A DNA stretch of 64,000 nt from a virus. Below, one piece after another: positions 8,033 to 62,127 of this stretch. The DNA is taken from IMG/VR virus record IMGVR_UViG_3300037189_023253, positions 1 through 64,000 of that record; one strand, 5' to 3'. The translations under genes and the position numbers were made by a program. Numbering within the stretch: the first letter of the stretch is position 1; each line of letters starts with the position of its first letter. Below the pieces are notes generated by a model. That model saw only the letters and a program-made list of their open reading frames with translations. It ran no database searches and was not told the DNA's origin.

Positions 8033-8037
8033 ATGAC

Positions 8038-10728: not shown

Positions 10729-10780
10729 GTTGTTTGATCGGTCCCCGTGAAATCCAGAGAGTTGGTCTGAGAGCTAGGGA

Positions 10781-10808
10781 AATATAGCAGATTGATTGTC
10801 GTTGTCAA
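10781..10808 (-). promoter_or_regulatory. Sigma70-like extended -10 promoter of the phosphoesterase/sigma operon
   Basis: Minus strand TTGACA (10808-10803), 16 bases, TATATT (10786-10781) preceded by TGC. Confidence 0.75.
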
Positions 10809-10817
10809 GACCGGAGT

Positions 10818-11462
10818 TTACCAAACGCCGGACGCTAACACTATCTGAGATATATGCTCCAGGCGTTCTGCGTGCTCAAAGGCCCGCCACGGATCAATAT
10901 CAACCGCAACAACACCATGCCCGACAACGCCCACGATGTCGTATTTTAGCTTGCCGTTCTCATCCGGCGAAAACGCACGGTAAACGGATCTACCGAGATT
11001 TTCGGTCCTAGCATCCAAAAACGGAACATTTGGACCAACACGGGTCAAGCCGTTGAGCTCGGGAAAGTCATTGCGCAGGTTTTGTAGATCAATCCCGCGT
11101 CTTATAGCAGCTACGGTGTAGGTACAATGCAAATGAACCACCACTCGGTTGCTGGTCGACAGCTTGCTTTGCAACAAATAATGGAATGGTAATTCCCCGG
11201 TCGGATTAAGACCGACGATCTTACGCTGATATTCGTCGTCGACCCGGGACATGTGTTCCCACGGCTGTTCTAGCCCGTCGTCAGAATCAGGGAATTGTAA
11301 CTTGAGCATCTGCTCGCTGGTGAGCGATTGCTTTCGCGCACCAGTCGGAGTTACATACATCCACGGCTGGCTGCGACGTCGCAGGCTAGCATTGCCGTCT
11401 CTGGTGGTTATCCATCCACGGGAATATGAGGCCTTTAAGACGTCACAGATTGTATCCAGCAT
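10818..11462 (-). CDS. Class II aldolase/adducin-family protein
   Basis: The 214-aa protein matches the AraD/FucA fold: RDGNASLR near the N-terminus (family GNxSxR), VTPTGARK (TPTG), VVVHLHCTYTVA with the paired zinc histidines (family HxH), and GHGVVAVD with the third region, then EHAERLEHISQI. This group includes fuculose-1-phosphate aldolase, ribulose-5-phosphate 4-epimerase and methylthioribulose-phosphate dehydratase; the exact substrate is unknown. It is the upstream neighbour of the metallophosphoesterase and downstream of the histone-like gene by 3 bases, so it may share the late promoter at 11684-11691. Confidence 0.82.
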   Translation of the reverse strand: MLDTICDVLKASYSRGWITTRDGNASLRRRSQPWMYVTPTGARKQSLTSEQMLKLQFPDSDDGLEQPWEHMSRVDDEYQRKIVGLNPTGELPFHYLLQSKLSTSNRVVVHLHCTYTVAAIRRGIDLQNLRNDFPELNGLTRVGPNVPFLDARTENLGRSVYRAFSPDENGKLKYDIVGVVGHGVVAVDIDPWRAFEHAERLEHISQIVLASGVW

Positions 11463-11465
11463 CGA

Positions 11466-11654
11466 TTACTCCTTTGGAGCAGCAGAATTCTTGGATTCCT
11501 GGATTTCAGCACGGCGTGCCTTGGAAAGCTTGCCAATCTCACCGAGGGCCTTGCGAGCCCGCGCAGCAGATGCCTTTACACCCTTGTCTTCAAACTTGGT
11601 ATGCTCTGATAGATACGCATTGAAATGCGCAACAATTTGATCATGAACGCTCAT
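11466..11654 (-). CDS. Small histone-H1-like protein (62 aa)
   Basis: Start at 11654 follows AAGGAGGATATAATA, an ideal ribosome-binding site. The product begins MSVHDQIVAHFNAYLSEHTK and contains GVKASAARARKALGEIGKLS, the Ala/Arg/Lys pattern of small histone-like (Hc1-type) phage and bacterial proteins. It likely binds DNA. A consensus late promoter TATAAATA (11684-11691) lies 24 bases upstream, overlapping the stop of the carbamoyltransferase gene. Confidence 0.8.
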   Translation of the reverse strand: MSVHDQIVAHFNAYLSEHTKFEDKGVKASAARARKALGEIGKLSKARRAEIQESKNSAAPKE

Positions 11655-11683
11655 TATTATATCCTCCTTTTGGATTAACGTGG

Positions 11684-11691
11684 TATTTATA
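11684..11691 (-). promoter_or_regulatory. Consensus T4-type late promoter (TATAAATA)
   Basis: Minus strand, predicted start about 11678, with a 24-base leader carrying a strong Shine-Dalgarno site before the ATG at 11654. Confidence 0.75.
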
Positions 11692-13180
11692 CCGATATAT
11701 CCCTGGTTAATACAGGGATACCGTATTTTAGGCCGAAATCTTGGGCATGTTGCTCCGTGTTGACCAACGGCTGATTCTTGATGTTTAAGCTGGTATTGAT
11801 CAACATCGGACAACCGGTTTCATTATACCATTCCATCAATAGCTGATAAAATTTCGGATGTTGTTGATGATTAACGGTTTGTATCCTCGAAGTGCCATCA
11901 ACATGCACCATTCCAGGAAACCTGGATCGATCCTTGGCCTCGAACACATATTGCATGTATGGACTTGATGTGTTCTGGGGGATTACAAAGTATTCGTGGG
12001 CTAGATGTTCTGGTATGGCTGCCGCAAATGGCCTAAACTGGTCTCTCTTTTTCAACCAATTCATTTGCAATTTAATGTCAGGTATCCGTGGATCAGCGAG
12101 AATGCTGCGATTTCCCAGTGCTCGGGGACCAAATTCAGCGCGGCCATTGGCCACGGCGGCAATACCACCGGTATTCAATGCTGACAATGCGGATTTTATC
12201 GGATAATCCCCGGTGATTTCGTACCCTAGATACGGGCCATCCCAGATGATCGAACGTCTGGTACGGGCTAACACCGCACCAATCGCACTGCCGGCATCGC
12301 CGGGATTCGGCATGATCCAAACATTGCGCCAACCGTGCCACTTGGAAATATTTGTATTGGCTACGCAGTTTAAGGCACACCCTCCCATGAGGACCAAGTT
12401 AGAGCTGGATAGATTCTGCCATGCCCATGTTAATGCTCGATGCAACGCTAGCTCGTAAACATGCTGGGCACCTGCAGCCAGATCCTCAGGAGAAATATCG
12501 GTTGGTAGCAGATGTCTCGCACCTGCATGTAAGTTGTGTCGAAGTCCAACGATACGCCGATTATTATCAAAATCAAGGAAATTTTCCTGCAAAAAATCAG
12601 ACATCACTGACGGATCTCCATAGGCAGCTTTACCCATGAAAATGTATTCCTCACCGACCGGTTTGAATCCCGCTGCCTCGGTCATGGCACTGTAAAACAG
12701 GCCCAAGCTATGGGGATAATCCTGTTGATATCGGCAGGTTAGTGTCGTGCCAACACCGTCCCAAATGGTTAGTGTTGCTAGCTCACCGATAGCATCAACC
12801 ACAACGATCGTTGCGTTGCTATATCCAGATGTGTAATAACCAGCAGCAGCATGGCTATGATGATGATCAACATAATGTATCGGTGCATCAATACCGAGCT
12901 TAACCATGCTGGTTTTTGGACTATCTTCAAAAATATGCCTAATTTGGCCGCTTGCTAGATATCGCAGCTTCTTTTTCCACGGATTCTCATAATAAAATAT
13001 CTTGTGCGGCAGTCCGTAGGAAGTCACCGCGTGATCAATTAACTCCTGGCAAAGATTAGGATCGTCCTTTCGGCCGGAAAATCTTTCGGAGTGGCTGGCA
13101 AAAACGATACGATCCGTCGCCAGGTCTATCACCGATAGTGCAGCATCATGGCTACCAAAGCTTGTTCCCCAAACGATCAT
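11687..13180 (-). CDS. Carbamoyltransferase (NodU/TobZ family)
   Basis: The 497-aa protein has the two-part family layout. The N-terminal ASKHA-fold domain starts MIVWGTSFGSHDAALSVI and holds HHHSHAAAGYY, the metal/adenylate histidine cluster. The C-terminal YrdC-like part has AEFGPRALGNRSILADPR, the carbamoyl-transfer signature, and ends MLINTSLNIKNQPLV. These enzymes make carbamoyl-adenylate from carbamoyl phosphate and ATP and transfer the carbamoyl group to a sugar or nodulation-factor-like acceptor. It faces away from the rightward biosynthetic run at 13312 and shares the intergenic promoter region, so the two probably form one pathway decorating a glycan. Confidence 0.9.
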   Translation of the reverse strand: MIVWGTSFGSHDAALSVIDLATDRIVFASHSERFSGRKDDPNLCQELIDHAVTSYGLPHKIFYYENPWKKKLRYLASGQIRHIFEDSPKTSMVKLGIDAPIHYVDHHHSHAAAGYYTSGYSNATIVVVDAIGELATLTIWDGVGTTLTCRYQQDYPHSLGLFYSAMTEAAGFKPVGEEYIFMGKAAYGDPSVMSDFLQENFLDFDNNRRIVGLRHNLHAGARHLLPTDISPEDLAAGAQHVYELALHRALTWAWQNLSSSNLVLMGGCALNCVANTNISKWHGWRNVWIMPNPGDAGSAIGAVLARTRRSIIWDGPYLGYEITGDYPIKSALSALNTGGIAAVANGRAEFGPRALGNRSILADPRIPDIKLQMNWLKKRDQFRPFAAAIPEHLAHEYFVIPQNTSSPYMQYVFEAKDRSRFPGMVHVDGTSRIQTVNHQQHPKFYQLLMEWYNETGCPMLINTSLNIKNQPLVNTEQHAQDFGLKYGIPVLTRDISV

Positions 13181-26256: not shown

Positions 26257-26332
26257 TGGCGCTTCCAGCAGGATTCGAACCTGCGACAAGAGAATTTAGA
26301 GGTCTCCGTTCTGACCACTGAACTATGGAAGC
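26257..26332 (-). tRNA. tRNA with anticodon CUA (amber suppressor type)
   Basis: A 76-base cloverleaf including an encoded CCA. Acceptor stem GCTTCCA/TGGAAGC is perfect (7 bp); D arm GTTC-AGTGGTCA-GAAC; anticodon arm GAGAC-CTCTAAA-TTCTC with anticodon CTA at 26299-26297 and one mismatch (C31/T39); variable loop TTGTC; T arm GCAGG-TTCGAAT-CCTGC; discriminator G. The conserved T33 and the A37 fix the reading as CUA, which decodes UAG. Its body resembles an Asn-type tRNA, which is only a guess at the charged amino acid. It is co-transcribed with the tRNA at 26338. Confidence 0.82.
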
Positions 26333-26337: not shown

Positions 26338-26407
26338 TGGTGCTCTGCGACGGAATTGAACCATCACTGCGAGGTTTTAGAGGCCTCCGGCTGTCCACCA
26401 GCACAGC
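26338..26407 (-). tRNA. Second tRNA with anticodon CUA, reduced D arm
   Basis: A 70-base cloverleaf with encoded CCA and discriminator A. Acceptor GCTGTGC/GCAGAGC has one G-G mismatch. Only one base (T) separates acceptor and D stem; the D arm is short (GGT-GGACA-GCC). Anticodon arm GAGGC-CTCTAAA-ACCTC gives anticodon CTA (26380-26378) with a mismatched last pair; variable loop GCAGT; T arm GATGG-TTCAATT-CCGTC. The seven-base anticodon loop is identical to that of its neighbour. The small D loop and single linker base recall pyrrolysyl tRNA, but the normal T loop and variable loop do not. Amino acid identity unknown. Confidence 0.72.
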
Positions 26408-26420
26408 AAAGCATTTAGTG

Positions 26421-47544: not shown

Positions 47545-47820
47545 ATGGCTAACCGCCTGATCGATCAATGGATCATCGATTGGCGCTGTAATAAAACACT
47601 ATTTTGTTTTGAATTGATCGGGACCGCAAGCAGCATCTGTGCTTCGGTCCTGGTTAGCTTTTGGCCAAACGTGATCGACCTTTCTTGGGTCTTTATTTTT
47701 TGGATGATCGGCAGCGTGTTCTTAGCCACCAGCGCATGGATGAGAGCAACAGCGTGGCCGATGTTTTTAATGGTAACTTATACGATTTTTAACGCGGTTG
47801 GGTTGTATAATACCTTATGA
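47545..47820 (+). CDS. Small membrane protein (91 aa)
   Basis: Begins two bases after the upstream stop. It has three hydrophobic helices (FELIGTASSICASVLVSFWP, SWVFIFWMIGSVFLATSAWM, MFLMVTYTIFNAVGLYN). Small multi-helix proteins with this arrangement are recurrent in T4-like marine phages. Function unknown. Its stop overlaps the epimerase start as ATGA. Confidence 0.65.
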   Translation: MANRLIDQWIIDWRCNKTLFCFELIGTASSICASVLVSFWPNVIDLSWVFIFWMIGSVFLATSAWMRATAWPMFLMVTYTIFNAVGLYNTL

Positions 47821-48821
47821 CCAAATGGATCTTCATAACCGGAGGGTGTGGCTATATTGGTAGCCACATTGCTGCCCATCTAAAAAGCACCACCGATCAC
47901 AGCGTGATGCTGATCGACAAAAAAGCAGCGGTGTTACCGCATATTACAAAATACTGTGATTTGTTTGCCGACGAAGATCTAACCAGCAATGTGGTATTAC
48001 AGGCCATAAGCAGCTATCGACCGGATACCATCATACACTGTGCGGAGGAGTTAGGCCCGACAAAATCCCTGCTTGATCCAATATCGATCTGGGAAAACAA
48101 CGTTATCAAATCGGTTGAGCTGTTAAAATACGCAGCAGAATTTGGTATCAATAAATTCATATTCTTCAGCACCGCCGATGTATATGCTAATTTAGATTCT
48201 CCTAAAAATGAAAATTGTCAGCTCTTACCGTTGAAATCAAACAGCCGATCAAAGCTCAGCATCGAATATCTACTGCGCGATTGTTACATTGCGCATGGAA
48301 TTAGCAGCATAAGTTTTAGAACTTTTAATGTTTCCGGTTCTCACAATCTGTACGATCTAGGTCACCTACAGAACGCACCGTTTTTGGTACCAAAAATGAT
48401 GGAAAGTGCAGCATTTGGTAAGAAACTTGAGATCTTTGGAAATGATTTCAACACAAAGGATGGCACAGCAATTCGAGATTATCTCCATGTCATGGATCTT
48501 GCCGAAGCCGTTGAGCAATCCATAGATTGGTTAGATTCCAATCCAGGTGCCTATGCAATGAATCTCGGTAGCGGCGCTGGCACTAGCGTGCAGGAAATGG
48601 TCGATCTATCGGAATCACTGCTGGGAAAAAATCTACCATACTTTTATGGTGATTGGCGCACCGGTGATCCTCCGATTAGCATTGCTGATATTTCTGCCAT
48701 CGGTGATTCAATTGGATGGAAACCAAAAAGAACCAATACTGATATAATATTAGATTCATATAAATGGTACAGCAGCAGAACCTATCAGGAAACGATAGCA
48801 GCTGGTCTCCATTACCATTGA
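47817..48821 (+). CDS. UDP-glucose 4-epimerase-like SDR protein with altered active site
   Basis: The 334-aa protein starts with TGGCGYIGSHIAAHL (GxxGxxG NAD loop), continues IIHCAEELGPTKSLLDPISI and has the C-terminal SDR block RDYLHVMDLAEAV and NLGSGAGTSVQEM, all typical of GalE. The catalytic YxxxK region reads KSNSRSKLSIEYLL, so the tyrosine is replaced by Asn (or Ser) while the lysine stays. The serine/threonine block FFSTADVY is intact. This may be a non-epimerising or inactive relative. Confidence 0.82.
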   Translation: MTKWIFITGGCGYIGSHIAAHLKSTTDHSVMLIDKKAAVLPHITKYCDLFADEDLTSNVVLQAISSYRPDTIIHCAEELGPTKSLLDPISIWENNVIKSVELLKYAAEFGINKFIFFSTADVYANLDSPKNENCQLLPLKSNSRSKLSIEYLLRDCYIAHGISSISFRTFNVSGSHNLYDLGHLQNAPFLVPKMMESAAFGKKLEIFGNDFNTKDGTAIRDYLHVMDLAEAVEQSIDWLDSNPGAYAMNLGSGAGTSVQEMVDLSESLLGKNLPYFYGDWRTGDPPISIADISAIGDSIGWKPKRTNTDIILDSYKWYSSRTYQETIAAGLHYH

Positions 48822-48896: not shown

Positions 48897-51143
48897 ATGT
48901 ATGTAGATGCGTTCTTGGAACGAGAAAAAAATCAGATACTTGTTGCCGAACGGGACAAGAACGGGAATCGCCAGTTTCGTGAATACCCGGCAAAATACAT
49001 AGCATATTGGCCCAGCCCACGGGGGAAGATTCCCAATATACATGGACAGCTTTGCGATAAATTCCAGACCAACAAGCTCAAGGAATTCCAGCGCGAAACC
49101 AGCATGCTGGCAAAAAGCCAGTTACATGAGAGCGACATCAATCCAATATTCCGCTGCTTGTATGACAACTACAAGGGAGCACCAAGTCCCGATCTGCATC
49201 TTGCATTTTTCGACATTGAGGTTGACTTTGACCCGGAGCGCGGCTTCTCAAGCCCTGATGATGCATTTGCACCGATCACGGCTATCTCCGTGTATTTGAA
49301 CTGGTTTGATCGCAACTTCACCATGGTGCTCAAGCCGAAAGGATTAAGCGTTGAGGATGCCCAGGAAATCGTTAGCAACTTTGACGACACGGTTTTGTGT
49401 GCCACAGAAAAGGAGATGTTGGAAGTATTCCTCAACTTGATTGAGGATGCTGACATCCTATCGGGCTGGAACTCCGAGGGCTTTGATATCCCTTACATAC
49501 ACAATCGAATCGTTCAACTGCTTGGTAAGGAAGAAACCCGCAAGCTGTGCCTGTGGAACAAACTTCCAAAGCGACGTGAGTACGAAAGCTACGGGCGAGA
49601 TACCATTACATATGATCTCGTCGGTCGGATACACATGGATTATCTACAGCTTTACCGCAAGAACACCTATCACGAGATGCATAGTTATCGGCTTGATTTC
49701 GTGGGAGAATATGAGGTCGGTGATAAGAAAATACACTATGAAGGTAGCTTAGATAAGCTTTATAACAATGATTTTGCAAAGTTTATCGAATACAATCGGC
49801 AGGATGTCATGCTGCTGGTTAAAATTGACCGAAAAAACAAATTCATTGAGCTCAGCAGCAACCTCGCACATGAAAATTGTGTGTTGTTAGGAACTACCAT
49901 GGGTGCCGTAGCATTGATCGATCAGGCCATTGTTAATGAAGCACATGATCTAGGAATGGTGGTACCAAATCGCAAGAGAGACGAGTCTGAACGAGAAACG
50001 TATGGCGGTGGCGACGACGATGATAATGACGACAGTGACGTTGGCATTACCGGTGTGGCCGGCGCATACGTTGCCGATCCCAAGGAAGGCATGCACGACT
50101 GGATCGGTGGTGTTGATATCAACTCACTGTATCCGTCGGCGATTCGTGCCCTAAACATGAGCCCTGAAACAGTGATCGGCCATATACGTCCAGAATACAC
50201 CGATAAGCTGATCTACAAGCGCATGAAGCAGGAAAAGAAAAGCTTTGCTGATGCATGGAGCGGTATGTTTGGCACATTGGAATACAACCAGGTGATGAAC
50301 CAGGATCTCACGCCAATAACCGTGGATTTTGAGGACGGGTCAACATCCACGGTTTCGGCAAGTGAGCTGTATGATTTGGTATTTAAAAGCGGCAAGAGGC
50401 TGATCATATCAGCAAATGGCACGCTGTTTACGCTTGATAAAAAGGGCATCATACCCGGATTGTTGGCTAGATGGTATGCTGAGAGAAAGCAGCTACAGGC
50501 TGAAATGAAGAAATACGCCAAGATGGCAGACGAGGAGACCGATCCAGACAAGCGAGCGGAGTATAAAAAGCTTACGGATTTCTATGACCAACGACAGCTG
50601 ATCAAGAAGATCCTGCTGAACAGCCTCTACGGCGCTATCGGTAATCCCGGTAGTCGATGGTATGATCCTAGAGTTGCACAAAGCGTTACGCTAAGTGGAC
50701 GTTGCATCGTCAAGCACATGCAGGGTAAGATCAACGAGATCATCACCGGTGATTACAACCATGTTGGTATTTCCTGCATCTATGGAGACACTGACTCGGT
50801 TGATTCTGCGTCAATCATCGAAACCTCAGTCGGAAAAAGAACCATCGAAGATCTGTTTCTGAATGGTAGTTTATTCTGGAATGACGGAGACAAAGAGTAT
50901 TCTGTTAATGACCAAATCAAATTAATTGGATATGATCATTCCTCGAAAACCACCGATTGGACCACGTATAATTACGTATATCGTCATAAGGTATCTAAAA
51001 AGAAATATCGAGTTAATACCTCAGATGGCAAAAGCGTGATCGTCACTGCTGACCATTCGATCATGGTAGTCACCGACGATGGTCGGCTTGTTAGCAAGAA
51101 GCCAACGGAACTTTCGGTCGGTGATAAAATAATTTCGTTGTGA
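48897..51143 (+). CDS. Family B DNA polymerase, N-terminal part, with N-intein
   Basis: This is the first half of a T4 gp43-like polymerase. LAFFDIEVDF begins the 3'-5' exonuclease, VDINSLYPSAIRALNMSP is motif A, KKILLNSLYGAIGNPGSRW motif B, and CIYGDTD the start of motif C. At codon 634 (50796) the frame passes into an intein: SVDSASIIETSVGKRTIEDL is block A with Ser at position 1, and VIVTADHSIMVV is block B (T-x-x-H). The protein stops after 115 intein residues. The C-terminal half is encoded at 52222; splicing in trans would rebuild YGDTD-SGYF. Confidence 0.93.
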   Translation: MYVDAFLEREKNQILVAERDKNGNRQFREYPAKYIAYWPSPRGKIPNIHGQLCDKFQTNKLKEFQRETSMLAKSQLHESDINPIFRCLYDNYKGAPSPDLHLAFFDIEVDFDPERGFSSPDDAFAPITAISVYLNWFDRNFTMVLKPKGLSVEDAQEIVSNFDDTVLCATEKEMLEVFLNLIEDADILSGWNSEGFDIPYIHNRIVQLLGKEETRKLCLWNKLPKRREYESYGRDTITYDLVGRIHMDYLQLYRKNTYHEMHSYRLDFVGEYEVGDKKIHYEGSLDKLYNNDFAKFIEYNRQDVMLLVKIDRKNKFIELSSNLAHENCVLLGTTMGAVALIDQAIVNEAHDLGMVVPNRKRDESERETYGGGDDDDNDDSDVGITGVAGAYVADPKEGMHDWIGGVDINSLYPSAIRALNMSPETVIGHIRPEYTDKLIYKRMKQEKKSFADAWSGMFGTLEYNQVMNQDLTPITVDFEDGSTSTVSASELYDLVFKSGKRLIISANGTLFTLDKKGIIPGLLARWYAERKQLQAEMKKYAKMADEETDPDKRAEYKKLTDFYDQRQLIKKILLNSLYGAIGNPGSRWYDPRVAQSVTLSGRCIVKHMQGKINEIITGDYNHVGISCIYGDTDSVDSASIIETSVGKRTIEDLFLNGSLFWNDGDKEYSVNDQIKLIGYDHSSKTTDWTTYNYVYRHKVSKKKYRVNTSDGKSVIVTADHSIMVVTDDGRLVSKKPTELSVGDKIISL
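50796..51140 (+). other. N-half of a split intein
   Basis: 115 codons from Ser (expected first intein residue) to the stop at 51141-51143. Block A and block B are present, no endonuclease domain is inserted. Confidence 0.85.
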
Positions 51144-51154
51144 GTCACAATACA

Positions 51155-51189
51155 GCTTCTATTGTGAATAAATAACTCATAATAGGAGC
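51155..51189 (+). promoter_or_regulatory. Hairpin that can hide the endonuclease ribosome-binding site, with late promoter inside
   Basis: GCTTCTATT (51155-51163) can pair with AATAGGAGC (51181-51189), which contains the Shine-Dalgarno site of the gene at 51197. The late box AATAAATA (51167-51174) lies in the loop with predicted start 51180, so late transcripts would lack the 5' arm. Confidence 0.6.
51167..51174 (+). promoter_or_regulatory. T4-type late promoter (AATAAATA) of the free-standing endonuclease
   Basis: Predicted start 51180, leader of 17 bases carrying AATAGGAGC. Confidence 0.65.
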
Positions 51190-51196
51190 GCACAAC

Positions 51197-52240
51197 ATGC
51201 CAAAGAAAATTGATAACATCAACGATGTAATAAACTCGGCTAGGTTTAGAGCGGCTACAAATCAACGATCATATTCTCAATGTGAGGTAGAAAAAATACA
51301 TCTGTTGTATGATCATATGATATCAAACGGAGTGTCGTTGATTAACGGCTACTATAATACATTTTGTCATCTCGTATCATACGACTTAACTGACCTTGTT
51401 AAGAGATTTGAGTTTCTACGACAAAACAGTACCAGACGGACAAAAGAAACATATCTAGCTAGATATGGCAACGAAATTGGCCTACAGAAATGGGAATCTT
51501 ATCGAGAAAAACAAAGAGTCAAAAATCTTTATGAAACCAAGAAAGAAAAATACGGTTGGTCTGTTGAGGAATTTAACGAATTCAACCGGTCTCGTGCCGT
51601 AACTGAGGAAAAATGTATAGCTCGTCATGGAGAGCAGGTTGGCTTGCAAATATGGGAAAATTATGTTGAGAAACAACGATACACTAATAGTTTAGATTAT
51701 TTTGAAAAGAAATATGGACTAGATGGATACCAAAAATGGATCGACTACAATCGAGAAAAAGGTAAATCTTCTAACATAGATTGGATAATGTCAAAATATT
51801 CAGTAGATAAACCAACAGCTTTAGAGATTTTATCCAAAAGAAACAATAGAGGATATACTTCTAAAGCCGAACTCGCATTTATTGAATATGTAGAAAGTAG
51901 TCTCGGTGCATCACTTCAATATACAGTAAAGACCAATCAGTTTTGTATATGGAGCGATGTATTACAATCTCCATGTTTTTATGATATAACAGATAGCCAA
52001 CGTATGAAAATTATCGAATTCAATGGCGATTATTGGCATTGTAACCCATTGATGTATGAATCTTCATTTTATCATCCTCATCTCAAAATGACAGCTAACA
52101 ATATTTGGGCATATGATTATGCTAAGATAAAAGCTGCGACTACCAGGGGGTTTTCGTTAAAAATAATCTGGGAAACTGACTTTATAAAAGATGCAAACAC
52201 TGTAATAAAAGAGGTTGTAAAATGGTGGAACATTACCTAA
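51197..52240 (+). CDS. Free-standing homing endonuclease, EDxHD/Vsr-like type
   Basis: The 347-aa protein lies between the two polymerase gene halves. The N-terminal part has repeated ARYGNEIGLQKWESYREKQR, ARHGEQVGLQIWENYVEKQR and KYGLDGYQKWIDYN modules, likely DNA-contacting. The C-terminal part, KIIEFNGDYWHCNP and WAYDYAKIKAATTRGFSLKI, matches the PD-(D/E)xK (Vsr-like) nuclease fold of the EDxHD family known from fractured genes with split inteins in marine phage data. It is A/T-rich and ends inside the coding region of the polymerase C-terminal gene (19-base overlap). Confidence 0.8.
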   Translation: MPKKIDNINDVINSARFRAATNQRSYSQCEVEKIHLLYDHMISNGVSLINGYYNTFCHLVSYDLTDLVKRFEFLRQNSTRRTKETYLARYGNEIGLQKWESYREKQRVKNLYETKKEKYGWSVEEFNEFNRSRAVTEEKCIARHGEQVGLQIWENYVEKQRYTNSLDYFEKKYGLDGYQKWIDYNREKGKSSNIDWIMSKYSVDKPTALEILSKRNNRGYTSKAELAFIEYVESSLGASLQYTVKTNQFCIWSDVLQSPCFYDITDSQRMKIIEFNGDYWHCNPLMYESSFYHPHLKMTANNIWAYDYAKIKAATTRGFSLKIIWETDFIKDANTVIKEVVKWWNIT

Positions 52241-52353
52241 CAGAGATATCATCTGTTGAGGATCTTGGAGAATTTGAAGACGAATATGTATATGATGTAG
52301 GAATGGATACGAATCATCCATATTTTTTTGCTAACGGATTACTAGTCCATAAT
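52222..52353 (+). other. C-half of a split intein
   Basis: 44 codons ending His-Asn, directly followed by TCT (Ser +1). No block A or B is present, confirming that splicing must act in trans with the product of 48897. Confidence 0.85.
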
Positions 52354-53235
52354 TCTGGGTATTTCAGCGCATATCCAGTGATGAAGGATCAGCCAGAGTT
52401 CAAGGACTTTGAGTGGACCAAGGAAAATGTCAGCAAGCTGTATGATAACATCGGCGACATGACCAACGACAGCTTTCCTGAGTTTATGAACCAAGCATTC
52501 AATTGTCCAGAAGAAAACGGTGCCATCATCCGTGCTGCTCGAGAATTGTGTGCATACAAGGGATTATTCATCACCAAGAAGCGTTATGCGGTGCTGATTT
52601 ATGACAAGGAAGGCAAGCGCAAGGATCTCAACGGCAAGCCTGGCGAGATCAAGGCCATGGGATTGGATCTCAAGCGCAGTGATACTCCTAAGATCGTGCA
52701 AGACTTTCTCAGTGATATATTAACGGCAGTATTGACCGGATCGACAGAAGGTGACATTCATGAGAAGATACTGGCATTCCGTAAGGAATTCCGTAGCTGG
52801 CCTGGATGGTTGAAAGGTTCACCGAAACGTGCTAACAAGATAACCCATTATCAAAACGTGATGGACTTACAGGGAAAGGTTGATTGGAAGGGCGGAGACC
52901 CAGGCAAGAAATCCATGATACCCGGGCATGTTCTTGCATCCATTAATTGGAACAGGCTCAAAAAAATCCATAATGATCATTACTCCATGCCAATCCAAGA
53001 TGGATTTAAGGTTATCGTTTGCAAGCTTCGGCCAAATCCCAGCGGGTTAACTTCGGTGGCATATCCGGTCGATGAGCTTACCTTGCCAGAATGGTTCAAG
53101 CAGTTACCATTTGATGATGAGGCCATGGAAGCCGCATTGATAGACAAGAAGGTAAAAAACCTCCTCGGCGTGCTGCGCTGGGATTTAGATTCAAACAAAG
53201 AAGCCAACAGTTTTGGTGATCTATTCAGTTTTTAA
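52222..53235 (+). CDS. C-intein and C-terminal part of family B DNA polymerase
   Basis: The first 44 residues are a C-intein: EYVYDVGMDTNHPYFFANGL is block F and LVHN the terminal His-Asn. Ser45 is the first residue of the C-extein, which starts SGYFSAYPVMKDQPEFKDFE and continues with the polymerase thumb (KRYAVLIYDKEGKRKDLNG, then the clamp-binding-like end NSFGDLFSF). Trans-splicing with the 48897 product gives a polymerase of about 926 aa, close to T4 gp43. The ribosome-binding site GAGGTTGTAAA lies in the endonuclease gene. Confidence 0.92.
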   Translation: MVEHYLTEISSVEDLGEFEDEYVYDVGMDTNHPYFFANGLLVHNSGYFSAYPVMKDQPEFKDFEWTKENVSKLYDNIGDMTNDSFPEFMNQAFNCPEENGAIIRAARELCAYKGLFITKKRYAVLIYDKEGKRKDLNGKPGEIKAMGLDLKRSDTPKIVQDFLSDILTAVLTGSTEGDIHEKILAFRKEFRSWPGWLKGSPKRANKITHYQNVMDLQGKVDWKGGDPGKKSMIPGHVLASINWNRLKKIHNDHYSMPIQDGFKVIVCKLRPNPSGLTSVAYPVDELTLPEWFKQLPFDDEAMEAALIDKKVKNLLGVLRWDLDSNKEANSFGDLFSF

Positions 53236-53428: not shown

Positions 53429-53637
53429 CCGCAAAAAATGTATCCAGGCCTCCGAAATATACTCCAGAGGAGCTCAAGATCCTGGTTGACGCGCTCAACG
53501 GAGCACCGTCATATTTGTCTAAACGCTTCATACTCAAGTATCTCTGCGGATGGAGCGACGAGCTCGTAGAAGAGAACATGAAACTGAAGATGCAAGAAGA
53601 ACAACAGAAGAAGATCGGAGATATACAATGGCGTTAA
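53425..53637 (+). CDS. Small hypothetical protein (70 aa)
   Basis: The product begins MTAKNVSRPPKYTPEELKIL and has KYLCGWSDELVEENMKLKMQ, which resembles the helical C-termini of T4-type portal proteins (an Ile/Leu-Gly-x-S/T-D-E pattern), a weak likeness. It overlaps both neighbours. Role unknown. Confidence 0.6.
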   Translation: MTAKNVSRPPKYTPEELKILVDALNGAPSYLSKRFILKYLCGWSDELVEENMKLKMQEEQQKKIGDIQWR

Positions 53638-54371
53638 AAGATTACTTTAAGGATCTCACCACTTACGTTGCAACGGCTGGATTTTTTGAAAAGATCAAGG
53701 TTACCGCAACCGCAAAGGAGATTTCCGTTGAGGCGATGGAAAAGGAAAAGGAAGTTATCCTCAAGGGCAAATTCAGTAAGCCATTGGTGGATCTCGAGGG
53801 CGAGTTTGGCCTGAGCAATCTCAGCCTGTTGCAAACCATTTGCAATGACCCGGAATTTACCGCCAAGGAAAGCGTGATGACCGTGGTATATGAAACCAAG
53901 AATGCCGAACGCATACCAACCGAGCTGGCCTATGAGAATCGAAGCAAAAGCTACATCAACTATCGTTTCATGAGCAAGACCTTGGTTCCTGAGCAGCCTA
54001 AGTTCTTGGAACCCAAGTGGGACGTGGTCGTTACACCGACCAAGGCTAATGTTCAGCAGTTTGCATGGGCTGCTAATGGTCTCGCTGCGTATGAACAGTA
54101 TTTCATTCCGAAGATCGTTGATGGCGATCTCAAGTTCTTCATTGGCGAGGACAATGCAGCCACCCAGCGAGGAGGTGTTGTGTTTGCTAGCGAACGTGCT
54201 GAAACGTTTGAAAGCCAGCACAAGTGGAAGATCCAGCAGGTCCTGGGAGTTCTCAAGGCAGCCGATACTTGTGATTGTGAAATGGCGTTTTCAACCAAAG
54301 GAGCCATCCAGATCACGCTGAACACCGGTGTTGGTACCTATCGATACATCTTCCCGGCCAAGGTTCGCTGA
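53628..54371 (+). CDS. Sliding clamp (gp45-like)
   Basis: ATG at 53628 follows CGGAGATATACA. The 247-aa protein has the two-domain clamp layout: KGKFSKPLVDLEGEFGLSNL with LLQTICNDPEF corresponds to the T4 gp45 loop that reads DLNGFLxILSLVNDDAE, and the end PAKVR follows a last strand GTYRYIFP. Its place after the DNA polymerase halves supports the call. In T4, gp45 also activates late transcription, which would fit the late promoters here. Confidence 0.72.
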   Translation: MALKDYFKDLTTYVATAGFFEKIKVTATAKEISVEAMEKEKEVILKGKFSKPLVDLEGEFGLSNLSLLQTICNDPEFTAKESVMTVVYETKNAERIPTELAYENRSKSYINYRFMSKTLVPEQPKFLEPKWDVVVTPTKANVQQFAWAANGLAAYEQYFIPKIVDGDLKFFIGEDNAATQRGGVVFASERAETFESQHKWKIQQVLGVLKAADTCDCEMAFSTKGAIQITLNTGVGTYRYIFPAKVR

Positions 54372-54414: not shown

Positions 54415-54486
54415 CATGGGCGAGAGTATATTAGACGTTATATTTGGTAGTCTAAAAAACGCCTGCTATATCGGCAGGCGTTTTTA
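54415..54486 (+). ncRNA. Candidate small RNA with two stem-loops
   Basis: Between a late box and a Rho-independent terminator lie 70 bases with a hairpin TTAGAC/GTCTAA (54431-54436 with 54450-54455) and the terminator stem itself. An ATG at 54416 also opens a 49-codon frame (MGESILDVIFGSLKNACYIG...) that runs through the terminator stem; I favour RNA over protein because the terminator would cut such a message. Confidence 0.4.
54460..54485 (+). terminator. Rho-independent terminator
   Basis: CGCCTGC (54460-54466) pairs with GCAGGCG (54474-54480), with A run before and T run after, so it could act in both directions. Confidence 0.85.
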
Positions 54487-54586: not shown

Positions 54587-55363
54587 ATGGGAAAAATGCA
54601 ATATAGATCAATCTGGATATCAGACATACATCTTGGTACGAAAGGTTGCAAAGCCGACCAGCTTTGCAACTTCCTCAAGAACAACAATTCGGATACATTA
54701 TATCTTGTTGGGGATATCGTCGACGGGTGGAAGCTCTCAAGGGGGTGGCATTGGCCGCAAGAACACAGCAATGTTGTTCGCCGGCTTCTAACCAAAGCCA
54801 AGAGAGGCACAAAGATCCACTACATCATCGGAAACCATGACGAGTTCCTTCGTCCGTGGTTGAAGCATGGTCTTAAGACCGGAAATATCACCATATCAAA
54901 TCAAATCACACATGTTGATTTACATGGTAGAAAATGGCTTGTCACACACGGTGATCTATTCGATCAGGTAACACGGCATTGGAAATGGGTGAGCATTCTA
55001 GGTGATCGTGCATATACTGCCCTGTTGATGTGCAACGGTCTAATACATCGTATGAGAAAACTAGTTGGTCTTGGTTATTGGAGCCTCAGCAAATATGTCA
55101 AAGGTAGAACCAAGCAAGCACTTAATTTCATTTACAAATTTGAAGAACATTTGGCTGCACATGCCAAGAGCAATGGATTCCACGGTGTCATATGCGGACA
55201 CATACATACTCCTGCCATAAAAGCAATAAATGGCGTGATTTATGCCAACGACGGCGATTGGGTAGAAACATGCTCGGTTCTTGTCGAAACGCATGATGGC
55301 GAATTTCAGCTATTATTGTTGGAAGAGGACGGATCAATGAAGATCTATGAAACATACAAATGA
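54587..55363 (+). CDS. plcP: PlcP-like metallophosphoesterase (phospholipase C type)
   Basis: The 258-aa protein shows all metallophosphoesterase motifs: SIWISDIHLGTKGCKADQL, LYLVGDIVDGW, YIIGNHDEFLRPWL, WLVTHGDLFDQVTRH and GVICGHIHTPA, then ANDGDWVETCSVLVE. The segment GLGYWSLSKYVK is the mark of the PlcP subgroup rather than LpxH. PlcP of rhizobia and marine bacteria cleaves phosphatidyl lipids to diacylglycerol in phosphate starvation. Its downstream neighbour is a glycosyltransferase (overlap 4 bases), the usual partner. An in-frame ATG at 54596 is an alternative start. Confidence 0.85.
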   Translation: MGKMQYRSIWISDIHLGTKGCKADQLCNFLKNNNSDTLYLVGDIVDGWKLSRGWHWPQEHSNVVRRLLTKAKRGTKIHYIIGNHDEFLRPWLKHGLKTGNITISNQITHVDLHGRKWLVTHGDLFDQVTRHWKWVSILGDRAYTALLMCNGLIHRMRKLVGLGYWSLSKYVKGRTKQALNFIYKFEEHLAAHAKSNGFHGVICGHIHTPAIKAINGVIYANDGDWVETCSVLVETHDGEFQLLLLEEDGSMKIYETYK

Positions 55364-56367
55364 AACTAACAGTGGTAACAGACACCTGGGATAACGTAAA
55401 CGGGGTGGTCACTACCTTGCGGGCCACTGTATTAGAAATGCAACAACGCGGATATGAGGTACAGGTCATAGAACCGGGACTTTTCCGTACCATTCCGATG
55501 CCAGGATATCCTGAGGTTAGATTATCATGGGATATTTGGAAAATTGGCAGATTGATAGAGAATTTTAATCCTGACTTCATACACATAGCCACTGAAGGGC
55601 CACTAGGTATCGCCGCAAGGTGGTATTGCAAGGTCAGGCACAGGAAGATACCGCACAATACCAGCTATCACACCAAGTTTCCCGAATATCTCAAGATACA
55701 CCACGGAATACCAGTCAGGGTGGGCTATTTTTTCATGCGAGTCTTCCACAAGTTCAGTCATCGAGTTTTAGTAACAACTGCTACCATGGAACAAGAGCTA
55801 CGCAGCAAAGGATTCAACAATCTTGTGATATGGAGCCGAGGCGTCGATCATAACACTTTTAACACGGATCAGCGCAAAACAAATCTTGCTGGAAAACCGG
55901 TTCTACTTTGTGTTAGCCGCGCTAGTCCCGAAAAAGGACTTGATGACTTTTGCTCGATCAAAACACCGGGAACAAAGATACTAGTAGGTGATGGTCCGTA
56001 TCTTGAAACTCTTAAATCTAAATATCCCGATGTTATATTCGCTGGTTATAAAAAAGGGGCCAGCCTAGCGCGATATTATGCCAATGCAGACGTGTTTGTA
56101 TTTCCCAGCCGATCCGACACATTCGGCGTGGTGATGCTTGAAAGCATGGCATGTGGCACCCCGGTAGCAGCATATCCGGTAACAGGTCCGATCGATATCA
56201 TCACACCCGGAGTGGACGGGTGTATAGCTGACGATCTTTCCGAAGCCATAAACGTGTGCTTAAATCTTGATCGAAAGATGGTGGAGGAAAGCAGCAGGCG
56301 TTTCACATGGAAAGCCTGCACTGATATCTTTGAAAAAAATCTAGTTTCGGTGCGTGCCAACAAGTAA
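55360..56367 (+). CDS. agt: GT4 glycosyltransferase, Agt-like (diacylglycerol glycosylation)
   Basis: The 335-aa protein is a GT-B enzyme of family 4: MKLTVVTDTWDNVNGVVTTL is the N-terminal strand and acceptor loop, VLLCVSRASPEKGLDDFCSI and VGDGPYLETLKSKYP follow, and FPSRSDTFGVVMLESMACGT is the EX7E donor-binding block. Its position next to PlcP matches Agt of marine alphaproteobacteria, which transfers glucose or glucuronate to diacylglycerol to make glycolipid. The stop-start overlap (ATGA) indicates coupled translation. Confidence 0.83.
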   Translation: MKLTVVTDTWDNVNGVVTTLRATVLEMQQRGYEVQVIEPGLFRTIPMPGYPEVRLSWDIWKIGRLIENFNPDFIHIATEGPLGIAARWYCKVRHRKIPHNTSYHTKFPEYLKIHHGIPVRVGYFFMRVFHKFSHRVLVTTATMEQELRSKGFNNLVIWSRGVDHNTFNTDQRKTNLAGKPVLLCVSRASPEKGLDDFCSIKTPGTKILVGDGPYLETLKSKYPDVIFAGYKKGASLARYYANADVFVFPSRSDTFGVVMLESMACGTPVAAYPVTGPIDIITPGVDGCIADDLSEAINVCLNLDRKMVEESSRRFTWKACTDIFEKNLVSVRANK

Positions 56368-57598: not shown

Positions 57599-58720
57599 AT
57601 GACACGAATATATATCGTACCAATTGAACCGATTGACACCAGATATACCAGGCAATGGTATGAACATATCCCTGTTTCCCTCGAGAAACAGGCCGCGGTC
57701 ATGGGAAAGAAAATTGATATCATCGTCGTTGACGGTGAGCAAGTACCACCGGTTCCAACGCCCGGTGCATTTCTTGATTTTGGTGCAACAAACATCTACA
57801 AGAGCTCTCAGCTAGGTGCTATAGCTGCTGAATTCCAGCATGGTCGCGTTAAACCAGGTGATCGATTCCTCTTTACCGATGCGTGGAATCCATCGGTAAT
57901 TTCGGTTCGATACATGAGCGAACTATTGAACATACCGGTTGAAATCCATGGTATGTGGCATGCTGGTAGTTATGATCCACAGGATTTCCTAGGTAGACTG
58001 ATCGGTAACGCACCCTGGGTTCGACATTCCGAAAAAGCCATGATGGCAGCGTATGATACCAATTGGTTTGCAACCAATTTTCATTTAGACATGTTCATAG
58101 AAAATCTATGGGGACCATTCTACAATGAAGCATTTGCTCCGACGTTCGATGAGGTTAAGGCCAATTGGATCGTAAATCGCAAGGTCGATATCACCGGCTG
58201 GCCGATGGATTATCTAAAGAGCGTTCTAGAGCCATACACGGCCATGGAAAAGAAGAATCAAATCGCGTTTCCACATCGTCTTGCTCCAGAGAAGCAACTT
58301 GATATCTTTAAGGATCTTGCTAACCACATGCCAGAGTATGAATGGGTGGTATGCCAGGAACGCGAGCTATCCAAGCACGAATATCATACCATGCTCGGGC
58401 AAAGCAAGATGGTATTTTCTGCCAATCTGCAGGAAACGTATGGCATCAGCATGATAGAAGGTTTGATATGCGGCGCAATACCGTTGGTACCAAATCGACT
58501 GAGCTATACCGAGATGTATGATGCCGGGTTAAAATATCCAGAAGAATGGACCAAGGATTTTGCCAGCTACGAGCAGAATCGAGAAAAACTCATGGGAAAG
58601 ATACGCAGCCTCATGGAGCATTCTGATAGCAATTTCATCAGAACTAGCATGTTAAGCCAGCTAGCAATGCTGGATAGATACATCAGGGCAACTCCGTTGA
58701 TGAACGCCTTGTTATCTTAA
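57599..58720 (+). CDS. T4-like phage glycosyltransferase (373 aa)
   Basis: The product begins MTRIYIVPIEPIDTRYTRQW and has FPHRLAPEKQLDIFKDLANH and LQETYGISMIEGLICGAIPL, the donor-binding and EX7E-like blocks of a GT-B transferase of the T4-like phage family. Homologues in marine T4-like phages also begin xYVVPIEPIETRYTxxWYE. It may glycosylate DNA bases or a surface glycan; its neighbours (DpdA-like, FolE, QueD-like) suggest base modification, but that is inference. No obvious ribosome-binding site except GGAAAGG some distance away. Confidence 0.78.
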   Translation: MTRIYIVPIEPIDTRYTRQWYEHIPVSLEKQAAVMGKKIDIIVVDGEQVPPVPTPGAFLDFGATNIYKSSQLGAIAAEFQHGRVKPGDRFLFTDAWNPSVISVRYMSELLNIPVEIHGMWHAGSYDPQDFLGRLIGNAPWVRHSEKAMMAAYDTNWFATNFHLDMFIENLWGPFYNEAFAPTFDEVKANWIVNRKVDITGWPMDYLKSVLEPYTAMEKKNQIAFPHRLAPEKQLDIFKDLANHMPEYEWVVCQERELSKHEYHTMLGQSKMVFSANLQETYGISMIEGLICGAIPLVPNRLSYTEMYDAGLKYPEEWTKDFASYEQNREKLMGKIRSLMEHSDSNFIRTSMLSQLAMLDRYIRATPLMNALLS

Positions 58721-58770: not shown

Positions 58771-60411
58771 ATGAATTTATTTTCCAAACAACTAGACTTG
58801 CATCCACAAGCGTTGAACTTAGCCGAGTCACAAAAGGACTATGCCGTATTCCTTCCAAGCATCAGTGCGATCTATGCCAAGATCGTCAGCATGCCTGAAT
58901 ACACCGTTCGAGACCGGTTACCAGACGGACTTAATAACGATCGCATTGATTTGGACTTTTTAAACCAAAAGAACAGCCTGATGTATTATCCGGCGGCACT
59001 TTACTCAGCTGGTCATGCGTATCTTGATCCAGCAGACAGTGACATTTATGAAAGCATGGTGCAAAAGAGGGATAGATCCAACACGGTTATATTAGGAGAC
59101 TCGGGCGGATTCCAAATTGCCACGGGTGTGTTGAAATGGCCGTGGACCAAAAAAGGCAAGCAAACAGATCAGGACTGGGAGCAGGACAAGGATAAGATGC
59201 GCATGAAAATCCTTCGGTGGCTCGAACACACCGCGGATTATTCCATGGTGCTCGATGTCCCTACATACGGTCTGGTTAAGTTTGGATTCGATCCGGTAAC
59301 CGGGGAAAGCCTGCATCCTGGTATGAAGACCTTCAGGGACTGTTTGAACGTGTCGCTTGAAAACTACGATTTTTTCATCAAGCATCGCAAGGAAGGTGCT
59401 ACCAAATTCCTCAACGTGTTGCAGGGAAGAAACGAAGCCGAAGGCGACATTTGGTGGGATGCGGTCAAGGACCTTCCGTTTGAAACCTGGGCATTCTCCA
59501 ACGTGCAAGCTTCGAACTTTGCCATCAATCTGCGTAGGTTGATCATCATGCGAGACGGCAAATATCTTGATGGCAGGGATTGGCTGCATTATCTAGGTAA
59601 TGGCAAGATCAAGGCCGGTTGCGCACTAACCACGCTGCAAAGAAACATCAGGCAGTTCATTAATCCAAACATCACCCTGAGCTTTGATGCAGCATCGCCG
59701 TTCGTGATGACAGCCAAGGGTCAGATGTATTATGGATATGAAAACAGCCATCGCAACATGCGTTTCAAGGGCGGTTCAATCGTGGATGACAAGTCCCTAA
59801 AGAACAGCCAAATGCTGATCAATGATTGGGTCATTGCAAATGATCGCAAGGGTGTGATCATGCCCACGGAAATAGGCCGCCGTTGCACGGTTGGCGATAT
59901 CTGTGTTCGAGGATACGACGATTTGGATTACAAGAAAATACCATTCTCCAAGAAGGAAATTGAAAGTGATTGGTATCCCTCCACTCCGGAAGGTCGATGC
60001 GGTGACAAGTTTCGATGGACGGACGCATACAAGGAGTACCTCGCACACGATCGAGGTAACGGGGGTCTATTTGATTTTGGAGGATCGTTTGATAAGGAAT
60101 ACGAAAAGTACCAGGTTAAATGGCCCAGCTCGATGGATGGATTCTCGTATTTGATCGCAATGCATCATAATGTTGAGCTGCATATACGGGCCATACAGGA
60201 TGCTTGCCGATGGCAAGACCAACCGCTGTTAGAAGCGAATAACCATGTTACTCCCGATCTTCTTGAGTTTAAGGATTTGTGTCCAGAAATACTAACATCG
60301 GAGCGTCCAATGGATCTCATCAACAAGCATGAGAAGCTTCTGCGTAATATTACCGGGATGGATGCCGATAACAACGTCAGCATGGAAATGGAGGATTTTG
60401 ATGAAGCGTGA
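58771..60411 (+). CDS. dpdA: DpdA-like tRNA-guanine-transglycosylase family protein
   Basis: The 546-aa protein has a TGT TIM-barrel: VILGDSGGFQIATGVLKWP carries the DSGGF nucleophile region, FLNVLQGRNEAEGDIWWDAV a middle block, and ITLSFDAASPFVM the second aspartate. Phage members of this family (DpdA) insert 7-deazaguanine bases such as preQ0 into DNA to resist restriction. The length, much over that of bacterial Tgt, fits the phage subgroup. FolE (61456) and the QueD-like start (63834) supply the pathway. It is followed by a gene overlapping by 11 bases. Confidence 0.82.
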   Translation: MNLFSKQLDLHPQALNLAESQKDYAVFLPSISAIYAKIVSMPEYTVRDRLPDGLNNDRIDLDFLNQKNSLMYYPAALYSAGHAYLDPADSDIYESMVQKRDRSNTVILGDSGGFQIATGVLKWPWTKKGKQTDQDWEQDKDKMRMKILRWLEHTADYSMVLDVPTYGLVKFGFDPVTGESLHPGMKTFRDCLNVSLENYDFFIKHRKEGATKFLNVLQGRNEAEGDIWWDAVKDLPFETWAFSNVQASNFAINLRRLIIMRDGKYLDGRDWLHYLGNGKIKAGCALTTLQRNIRQFINPNITLSFDAASPFVMTAKGQMYYGYENSHRNMRFKGGSIVDDKSLKNSQMLINDWVIANDRKGVIMPTEIGRRCTVGDICVRGYDDLDYKKIPFSKKEIESDWYPSTPEGRCGDKFRWTDAYKEYLAHDRGNGGLFDFGGSFDKEYEKYQVKWPSSMDGFSYLIAMHHNVELHIRAIQDACRWQDQPLLEANNHVTPDLLEFKDLCPEILTSERPMDLINKHEKLLRNITGMDADNNVSMEMEDFDEA

Positions 60412-61455: not shown

Positions 61456-62127
61456 ATGACAACACCTAGCGAAACGATCCGTAATCGGCTCAAGGAAAGC
61501 GATAGCAGGTTTTACTGCAATGACAACATCAGCGAAGCGGTTGGGGACATTGATTTTGATGCCCTGATCGATGAGGTTACCGGAAAGATGCAGGGCGTGC
61601 TCGAAAGCCTCGTGATTGACACGGACAACGATCACAACACCCACGACACAGCAAGGCGTGTGGCAAAGATGTTTGTTCTAGAAACATTTGCCGGCCGCTA
61701 CCTACCAAAGCCAAAGATCACCGCGTTTCCTAACGCCAATCAATATGATGAGGTGTATGTTACCGGTCCGATCAGCATACGCAGCACCTGTGCTCACCAT
61801 TTCCAGGGTATCAGAGGCAAGTGCTACATCGGAGTCTTTCCAGGAAAGAACGTGATCGGGCTCAGCAAGTTTAACCGTTTGGTACATTGGATTTCAGCCC
61901 GGCCACAGATCCAAGAAGAAATGTCCGTACAGATTGCCGATGCAATAGTGGAAGCAACAGAAGCTGAAGGAATTGCAGTATTGGTACAAGCTGAGCACAT
62001 GTGCATGACCATGCGCGGTGTTATGGAGCACGATTCTGCGATGACCACATCTGTCATGAGAGGCGTGTTTAGGGAAGATCCTAGCCTAAAGCAGGAATTT
62101 TTCAACATAGTGTCTAAGATGCCATAA
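61456..62127 (+). CDS. folE: GTP cyclohydrolase I
   Basis: The 223-aa protein has the full FolE set: DHNTHDTARRVAKMFV, GPISIRSTCAHHFQGIRGK with the Cys and His zinc ligands, VIGLSKFNRLVHWI and AEHMCMTMRGVMEHDSAM with the second cysteine. It makes dihydroneopterin triphosphate, the first step of queuosine/7-deazaguanine and folate synthesis. Its end, VMRGVFREDPSLKQEFFNIV, is repeated in a small frame at 63030 beyond a homing endonuclease. The ribosome-binding site is AGAAAGGATACC. Confidence 0.92.
   Translation: MTTPSETIRNRLKESDSRFYCNDNISEAVGDIDFDALIDEVTGKMQGVLESLVIDTDNDHNTHDTARRVAKMFVLETFAGRYLPKPKITAFPNANQYDEVYVTGPISIRSTCAHHFQGIRGKCYIGVFPGKNVIGLSKFNRLVHWISARPQIQEEMSVQIADAIVEATEAEGIAVLVQAEHMCMTMRGVMEHDSAMTTSVMRGVFREDPSLKQEFFNIVSKMP

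Follow-up and report, generated by a model that had tools for sequence, protein, structure and literature searches.

Can a phage carry a complete route for exchanging the phospholipid of its host for glycolipid, and if so, is the benefit phosphate? The question is raised by two adjacent genes in the window, the 64,000-nucleotide stretch of DNA analysed here, which makes up positions 1 to 64,000 of a 102,607-b IMG/VR virus record (IMGVR_UViG_3300037189_023253, hereafter G000). The first gene (54587..55363, plus strand, 258 aa) encodes a PlcP-type metallophosphoesterase, a predicted phospholipase C identified by Pfam domains, profiles, a tree and a motif. The second (55360..56367, plus strand, 335 aa) encodes an Agt-type GT4 glycosyltransferase, a predicted diacylglycerol glycosyltransferase identified by domains, a tree and a structure model. 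They are joined by an ATGA overlap (55360..55363, plus strand), in which the transferase start ATG (55360-55362) and the esterase stop TGA (55361-55363) share bases, a join found likewise in the P. aeruginosa pair. Both products match their Pfam domains above cut-off: Metallophos (37.6 bits, cut-off 21.5) and Metallophos_2 (39.4, cut-off 27) in the esterase, and Glyco_trans_1_4 (79.8 bits, cut-off 27), Glycos_transf_1 (75.6, cut-off 26.4) and Glyco_transf_4 (71.7, cut-off 28.5) in the transferase. A metallophosphoesterase bearing GLGYWSLS and a GT4 gene starting in its stop codon were what the original prediction, made from the sequence alone, had described; the open reading frames, the overlap and the domains bear it out, and the motif is present. 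The gene order is thus shown directly. We consider it likely, with a probability of roughly 0.72, that the pair is a phage-borne plcP-agt operon that saves membrane phosphorus, its activity, the lipid change, its timing and the host being inferred.

The identity of the esterase is the first point at which this reading could fail. According to a rival explanation, it is an LpxH-like enzyme of lipid A synthesis, the transferase is a separate envelope sugar transferase, and their adjacency reflects no pathway. Public records do label such genes UDP-2,3-diacylglucosamine hydrolase or diphosphatase. Moreover, the solved structures nearest to the AlphaFold model of the esterase (pLDDT 84.8, weak at 127-182) are those of LpxH, and a PDB search with the esterase sequence profile returned LpxH entries only. 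Against this stand profile scores, the GNHD motif, the trees and the repeated co-occurrence with Agt. On the NCBIfam LpxH model TIGR01854 the esterase reaches 49.9 bits against a cut-off of 190.35. When 18 bacterial genomes, picked among 80 bacterial Agt loci, were searched with the same model, six proteins scored 221-289 bits and nine PlcP-type proteins 33-53, with one intermediate (L189, 81.7 bits); five of the 18 genomes contained both kinds. A profile of the phage esterases gave 319-380 bits for 54 bacterial PlcP-type proteins and 349 and 367 bits for the S. meliloti and P. aeruginosa reference records, respectively, as against 37-47 bits for the LpxH-side proteins L183, L184, L188 and L189 and 21-26 for L185-L187. 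The motif reads GNHD in the window; phage and PlcP rows have either GNHD or GNHE, whereas 6/6 LpxH proteins have GNRD. GNHE is also seen in L189, an outlier that the tree places on the LpxH side. Many but not all phage and bacterial PlcP rows share a YWSLS-type core, which none of the 6 LpxH rows has. Seven residues which we take to form the metallophosphoesterase metal site (D13, H15, D43, N83, H121, H205 and H207) are invariant in all 27 phage rows and all 45 bacterial PlcP rows.

The branching pattern agrees with these scores. In both trees the rows were thinned at 75-85% identity, and the HTCC7211 and A. tumefaciens reference proteins are not included. In the esterase tree (79 rows), 25 of the 27 thinned phage rows form one clade (95/92) within PlcP and the LpxH side is separate (100/99), while the two remaining phage rows, L014 and L022, fall elsewhere on long branches. 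The neighbours of the phage clade (99/94) are the S. meliloti record, Phyllobacterium and a second copy in a Nisaea genome. The esterase is 50.8% identical to the P. aeruginosa protein and 44.4% to its S. meliloti homologue; we take the P. aeruginosa comparison proteins to be PlcP and Agt1. The S. meliloti and P. aeruginosa esterase records are 46.6% identical to each other, in line with the 46% reported between PA3219 and S. meliloti PlcP (PMC8528852), from which we infer that they are the published PlcP proteins. Family placement as PlcP-type is consequently well supported by homology; phospholipase C activity on phosphatidylethanolamine and phosphatidylglycerol is inferred. An LpxH identity is rejected on the TIGR01854 score, the phage-profile scores, GNHD and the tree, and the rival as a whole seems very unlikely.

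The transferase can be compared with a characterised relative. The products of Agt/GTcp are glucosyl-, galactosyl- or glucuronosyl-diacylglycerol, and residues of its active site and of its donor and diacylglycerol sites have been mutated (PMC8231724). We placed these residues from the published list by order, motif and alignment, without the GTcp sequence itself, and mapped 13 of them in the window: G15, G80, G83, H104, R160, R187, K192, D253, T254, F255, G256, E261 and W317. Twelve are invariant across 37/37 thinned phage rows. The thirteenth, D253 (GTcp D256), is Asp in 31 rows, the window included, and Glu in 6 (L060, L061, L067, L085, L088 and L092); in GTcp the D256E change costs >90% of activity (PMC8231724). 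A docking residue called crucial, GTcp Thr162, corresponds to Ser159 in the window, and this position is variable in phages (26 T, 7 N, 4 S) as well as in bacteria. In the transferase tree, the 37/37 thinned phage rows form one clade (99/99) inside the Agt group and apart from other GT4 enzymes. This tree has only 3 other-GT4 outgroup rows and an unsettled bootstrap, and the place of the phage clade within Agt is unresolved. A GT with an internal stop (L205) was excluded, and L204, which we take to be P. aeruginosa Agt2 (inferred from its neighbours), falls outside the Agt group with one outgroup row. Identity to the P. aeruginosa Agt1-type protein is 43.4%, and the AlphaFold model (pLDDT 90.5) matches GT4 structures such as BshA.

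Could the transferase instead modify phage DNA or surface sugars, for example in the role of a T4-type DNA glucosyltransferase? A DNA polymerase gene and FolE and QueE-like genes (7-deazaguanine-type) do lie near the pair, and the fold is common to many GT4 enzymes. Both the clade and the diacylglycerol-binding residues retained in the window (H104, R160, W317) match Agt, however, and plcP is a constant neighbour; we regard this alternative as very improbable. The Agt-type assignment is thus well supported by homology, whereas the synthesis of MGDG or GADG from diacylglycerol is inferred. Placement of the esterase with LpxH, or of the transferase with other GT4 enzymes, had been named beforehand as what would refute the prediction; the trees did neither. 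The enzyme identities behind the predicted route from phospholipid through diacylglycerol to glycolipid have therefore held, by homology. A specific link to marine alphaproteobacteria has not: the transferase clade is unresolved within Agt, and the neighbours of the PlcP clade are of rhizobial type.

Is the pair truly viral? Bacterial contamination, or a bacterial contig mis-called as viral, might be suspected, since IMG/VR calls are made computationally and the contigs include many short fragments. A 452,799-b IMG/VR contig (G019) bears on this: it matches window bases 1-12000 at 100%, encodes the pair and seven neighbouring test proteins, all at 100% identity, and also carries a Gp23 capsid gene. 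A Gp23 search of G000 gave no match, this record being itself only a part. Since the 452.8-kb contig holds the pair, its neighbours and Gp23 together, we assign the pair to a very large T4-like phage. Gp23 was found on 9/48 of the relatives' contigs searched, including 6/6 of the pair-bearing contigs over 300 kb. The window also holds a phage DNA polymerase and other phage families, and the thinned viral transferases (37/37) group apart from bacterial rows. On the strength of Gp23 on long pair contigs and the separate phage transferase clade we reject contamination, which is all but excluded.

The surroundings of the pair, all on the plus strand, include replication genes. DNA polymerase B is represented by an N-terminal part running into an intein (48897..51143, from family searches) and a presumed C-terminal part after it (52222..53235, inferred from position; this reading frame is kept near the pair), with an open reading frame at 51197-52240 between the two. 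Immediately before plcP lies a gene of unknown function assigned to PHROG family phrog_12062 (53625..54371, 248 aa), without Pfam match and kept next to the pair in the closer relatives of the window; it is conceivably sliding-clamp-like, a guess from position only. Between it and plcP, folding revealed a terminator-like hairpin of 13 bp, flanked by runs of A and T (54455..54485; -19.7 kcal/mol, z -6.4, 0/200 shuffles equally stable). A terminator scan did not list this hairpin, and the corresponding stretch of the relative L003 folds no better than shuffles (z +0.6). Neither did a sigma-70 promoter scan around the pair give a signal (5 matches vs 7.7 in shuffles). Upstream, a GalE-like nucleotide-sugar epimerase (47817..48821) scores just under threshold on the galE model (243.3 bits, cut-off 262.3); it might supply a UDP-sugar to the pair, a link that is no more than an inference. 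UDP-sugar dehydrogenase (PF03721) gave partial matches in 6/14 records, none of them G000 or G019. As to timing, the original prediction placed an envelope change late in infection; this is unsupported, there being no expression data and the pair lying near the DNA polymerase gene.

Both genes are under purifying selection. Between the window and L003, dN/dS (Nei-Gojobori counts, Jukes-Cantor) is 0.053 for the esterase and 0.048 for the transferase, and across all sequence pairs close enough to measure it ranges over 0.013-0.19. Together with a gene order that recurs in dozens of contigs, these low values show that the pair is not a chance arrangement.

This recurrence was examined from either gene. 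Viral contigs yielded 251 relatives of the window transferase, and among the 80 kept, 78 have plcP upstream, in 3 cases 651-956 nt away from agt; the two without it start within the transferase gene, where they are cut. A human-faecal record, H2 (L208), was excluded as bacterial on our reading of its gene content. Scans centred on plcP gave 109 and at least 532 relatives, and the two lists, each capped at 80, made up 159 loci (L214-L372). This second set shares at least 4 contigs with the first (L294/L010, L314/L073, L317/L067, L319/L075) and contains one contig twice (L217/L353); the overlapping loci were kept in the gene-order counts. Among the 132 loci with >=1,300 nt downstream, the gene following phage plcP is Agt in 65 and a GT2 transferase in 47, the GT2 family being confirmed by Pfam in 5/5 proteins tried. 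The 20/132 with neither transferase next count against the pair reading. In bacteria, a PlcP-type gene is present at 54/80 Agt loci, and plcP before other transferases has also been described (types 3 and 5; PMC4796936). The spread of the pair in viral contigs is thus shown, and its presumed rarity finds no support, with hundreds of relatives. That no phage had been described with the pair agrees with our searches, limited as these were to the open-licence literature and one phage collection. A search of 50,697 annotated phage records returned 5 that match the esterase and 15 that match the transferase (best 36% identity), with no record in both lists. No description of a phage with a plcP-agt pair was found in the literature searched, and the relevant passages of PMC9804370, PMC9938194 and PMC9457565 report no phage-borne plcP. 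In an ocean survey of viral auxiliary genes (PMC11360552), the terms plcP, lpxH, phospholipase, glycolipid and lipid remodel are absent from the main text.

Is the module linked to phosphate? The clearest clues come from the relatives. We found pstS in 4/18 phage records, in three of them directly beside plcP or agt (Mosig, G054 and G063); in phage Mosig it is divergent and beside plcP. In L070, L082, L084, L085, L094 and L095 (L094 and L095 being identical in both genes) it lies on the same strand as agt, 17-88 nt downstream, and in L008/L034 (one contig) and L092 it is within 10 kb of the pair. In the plcP-centred set it occurs in 12/159 loci. These pstS neighbours are shown, and pstS is found near agt in some bacteria as well. 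PhoH matches were obtained in 12/18 phage records; PhoH is common in phages generally. Searches for pstS and PhoH in G000 and in the 452.8-kb contig gave no match, although either may be incomplete.

An upstream repeat is likewise shown in a part of the relatives. The direct repeat TGTMA-N6-TGTMA precedes plcP on the plus strand in 12/56 distinct phage regions (shuffle mean 0.085), in 11 of the 12 at 38-55 nt before the start codon. Its spacing is that of the E. coli Pho box. In this first set a minus-strand repeat occurred in one region, and other spacings gave 0 except spacer 10 (3). In held-out regions, from which upstreams >=70% alike to those of the first set had been dropped, the repeat was found in 19/95 (other spacings <=1; shuffle mean 0.15), with 18/19 at 38-59 nt from the start and 0/94 in the next 200 nt out. 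It also lies 60-72 nt before 3/4 phage pstS genes, Mosig being the exception. The repeat is absent from plcP-agt gaps >40 nt (0/33), and in its strict form from bacterial plcP upstreams (0/54), so that it is no general mark of plcP; a looser scan did pick up sites upstream of plcP in P. aeruginosa and S. meliloti. Some cautions apply. The regions are related to one another, ungapped identity having been the only criterion for thinning them; counted over whole contigs, the repeat does not exceed a reversed-pattern control; and the held-out repeat is not tied to Agt (5/38 with Agt next vs 11/42 without). Moreover, PhoB binds phage promoters, but Pho-box prediction in phages has been called unreliable (PMC10976474). 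In the window, no strict repeat lies upstream of plcP, and the best match of the loose scan is on the minus strand (p 0.02, uncorrected) and not credible. A search for a pho box at this locus, suggested at the outset, thus came out negative for the window and positive for some relatives. Without repeat, pstS or phoH, the phosphate role of the window's own phage rests on homology, and support for a phosphate purpose is indirect, coming from the relatives' pstS neighbours and repeats.

The mechanism that we put forward comprises three steps. From homology, a metal-dependent PlcP-family phospholipase C would cut host phosphatidylglycerol and phosphatidylethanolamine into diacylglycerol and a phosphorylated head group. 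The GT4 enzyme would then use a UDP-sugar to place glucose, galactose or glucuronate on the diacylglycerol; the product, a glycolipid without phosphorus, would keep the membrane intact. Finally, host enzymes would reclaim phosphate from the head groups, making membrane phosphorus available to a phosphate-limited infected cell. Transcription would apparently be tied to the host PhoB response through the Pho-box-like repeat in a sizeable minority of relatives; in the window's phage no such tie is seen, and we can only guess that the pair is expressed along with the neighbouring replication genes.

How much phosphorus might be gained in this way? One 452.8-kb genome contains 905,598 P atoms. For comparison, two marine bacteria lost ~0.27 and 0.91 million P per cell from their phospholipids on remodelling (PMC4796936). 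Lipids would therefore fund ~0.3 to 1 genome in such cells; larger hosts would yield more. With so small a yield, the pathway may be a supplement, may sustain the membrane when phospholipid synthesis stops, or may alter the envelope. It also counts against the phosphate reading that PlcP yields phosphorylated head groups and not phosphate. Altered phospholipid handling at low phosphate has been reported in infected cells without such genes, in a paper where the term plcP does not occur (PMC12282109). The idea that phosphate is pulled from host membranes has therefore held only in part, with indirect support from relatives and a gain of doubtful size.

In an alternative scenario the enzymes are the same and the benefit is a changed envelope, through surface charge, receptors, fluidity or stability, for instance by impeding a second phage or by giving the infected cell protection. 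The small yield relative to a genome of 0.9 million P favours this possibility, as does the lack of repeat, pstS and PhoH matches in the window's phage. Loss of aminolipid cut phage attachment ~fourfold in Ruegeria, by a PlcP-independent route (PMC9938194), and unpublished adsorption data are cited in PMC9804370. In infected Pseudoalteromonas, virus-specific phospholipid changes were observed, and membrane composition and phage fitness discussed (PMC12282109). Against it, the relatives' pstS neighbours and Pho-box-like repeats point to phosphate. The envelope scenario remains possible, and we retain the phosphorus-saving operon as the preferred reading.

A bolder version of this preferred reading is that large T4-like phages widely carry a pathway of PlcP with an Agt-type GT4 or a GT2 transferase that replaces phospholipid by glycolipid, in some lineages wired to host PhoB and bundled with pstS, so that infected membranes change on the phage's order. 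We lean toward this view, if only by a modest margin. Should it be true, a phage able to take phospholipids apart and to remake the membrane with glycolipid would represent a new control point over the infected cell. Infection would thereby be connected with phosphorus recycling and with the chemistry of the membrane, and glycolipids in infected cells and PhoB binding would be expected. Both the bacterial pathway and phage phosphate genes were already known; what is new is a host pathway as a phage module with clades of its own, two alternative transferases and, in some relatives, signs of PhoB control.

Among known systems, LpxH of the lipid A pathway has the calcineurin-like fold in common with the window esterase, but carries GNRD instead of GNHD, occupies a separate side of the tree and scores far higher on the LpxH model. 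Pelagibacter phage Mosig EXVC030M, which is cultured, encodes a PlcP-type esterase of 53.6% identity annotated as 'putative UDP-2,3-diacylglucosamine hydrolase', whose gene adjoins a 'putative phosphate ABC transporter' gene and, unlike that of the window, has no glycosyltransferase beside it; passages on this phage in PMC9004378 do not mention lipids. Entries of 'lpxH' among viral auxiliary genes, such as K03269 listed for Lake Baikal viruses (PMC9611531), may possibly be mis-named plcP, which we offer as a suggestion only. The usual phage phosphate genes, pstS, phoA and phoH, act on uptake or stress (see also PMC10976474). Cyanophage pstS under host PhoB (PMC10976474) is likewise a phosphate-linked auxiliary gene, and some relatives of the window's phage share with it a Pho-box-like site or have pstS adjacent; in contrast, the pair would tap the phosphorus of the membrane rather than serve uptake, through two sequential enzymes, and the window's phage has no Pho-box-like site. 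The closest parallel is the bacterial PlcP-Agt operon of Candidatus Pelagibacter HTCC7211 and of P. aeruginosa (PA3219-PA3218; PMC4796936, PMC8231724, PMC8528852), with which the phage pair shares gene order, family placement and key residues and, in P. aeruginosa, the ATGA join. It differs from that operon in residing in very large T4-like phages, in proteins only ~43-51% identical to the bacterial ones compared, and in transferases that form a clade of their own.

The pairing of PlcP with Agt may not have been inherited as a fixed unit within the phage family. In two phage contigs, L025 and L029, the Agt is 70% identical to that of the window, whereas the PlcP shares only about 50% identity with its counterpart, which suggests a possible exchange of partners. 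PlcP is also found with other neighbours. In seven contigs of 181-256 kb (L014-L020) the gene for a distant phage PlcP overlaps one for a GT2 transferase. In the tree, the row for this PlcP falls outside the main phage clade, which suggests that it was acquired separately. In the phage contig L011, a cytidylyltransferase/mannose-6-phosphate isomerase fusion (9992-11502) follows PlcP, with no glycosyltransferase in that place.

The window encodes a 373-aa protein (57599-58720) with a weak local match to Agt1 of P. aeruginosa (30.5% over 95 aa). Pfam, NCBIfam and PHROG all return no match for it, and it may be another transferase. A Nol-like carbamoyltransferase gene (phrog_1601) lies on the minus strand at 11687-13180.

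Three genes, DSGGFQ-motif, FolE-type and QueE-like, are located at 58771-60411 and 61456-62127 of the window and at 1375-2202 of L199. By our own reading, the DSGGFQ motif resembles tRNA-guanine transglycosylase/DpdA; its gene is without match in Pfam, NCBIfam or PHROG. Given the accompanying FolE-type GTP cyclohydrolase and QueE-like genes, the set might represent 7-deazaguanine DNA modification.

Two adjoining minus-strand tRNA genes with anticodon CTA (26257-26332 and 26338-26412), of amber-suppressor type and both assigned to tRNA-Pyl by ARAGORN, hint at possible TAG recoding in this phage. A DNA polymerase B gene (48897-53235, presumed second half included) continues into an intein; the ORF at 51197-52240, ahead of that presumed half, has no Pfam family.

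Finally, pstS, the phosphate-uptake gene, lies near agt in seven bacterial loci (L112, L124, L126, L135, L136, L137 and L167), from Brevundimonas, Phenylobacterium, Maricaulis, Robiginitomaculum and one Caulobacteraceae MAG, similarly to some phages, in which pstS is also close to agt.
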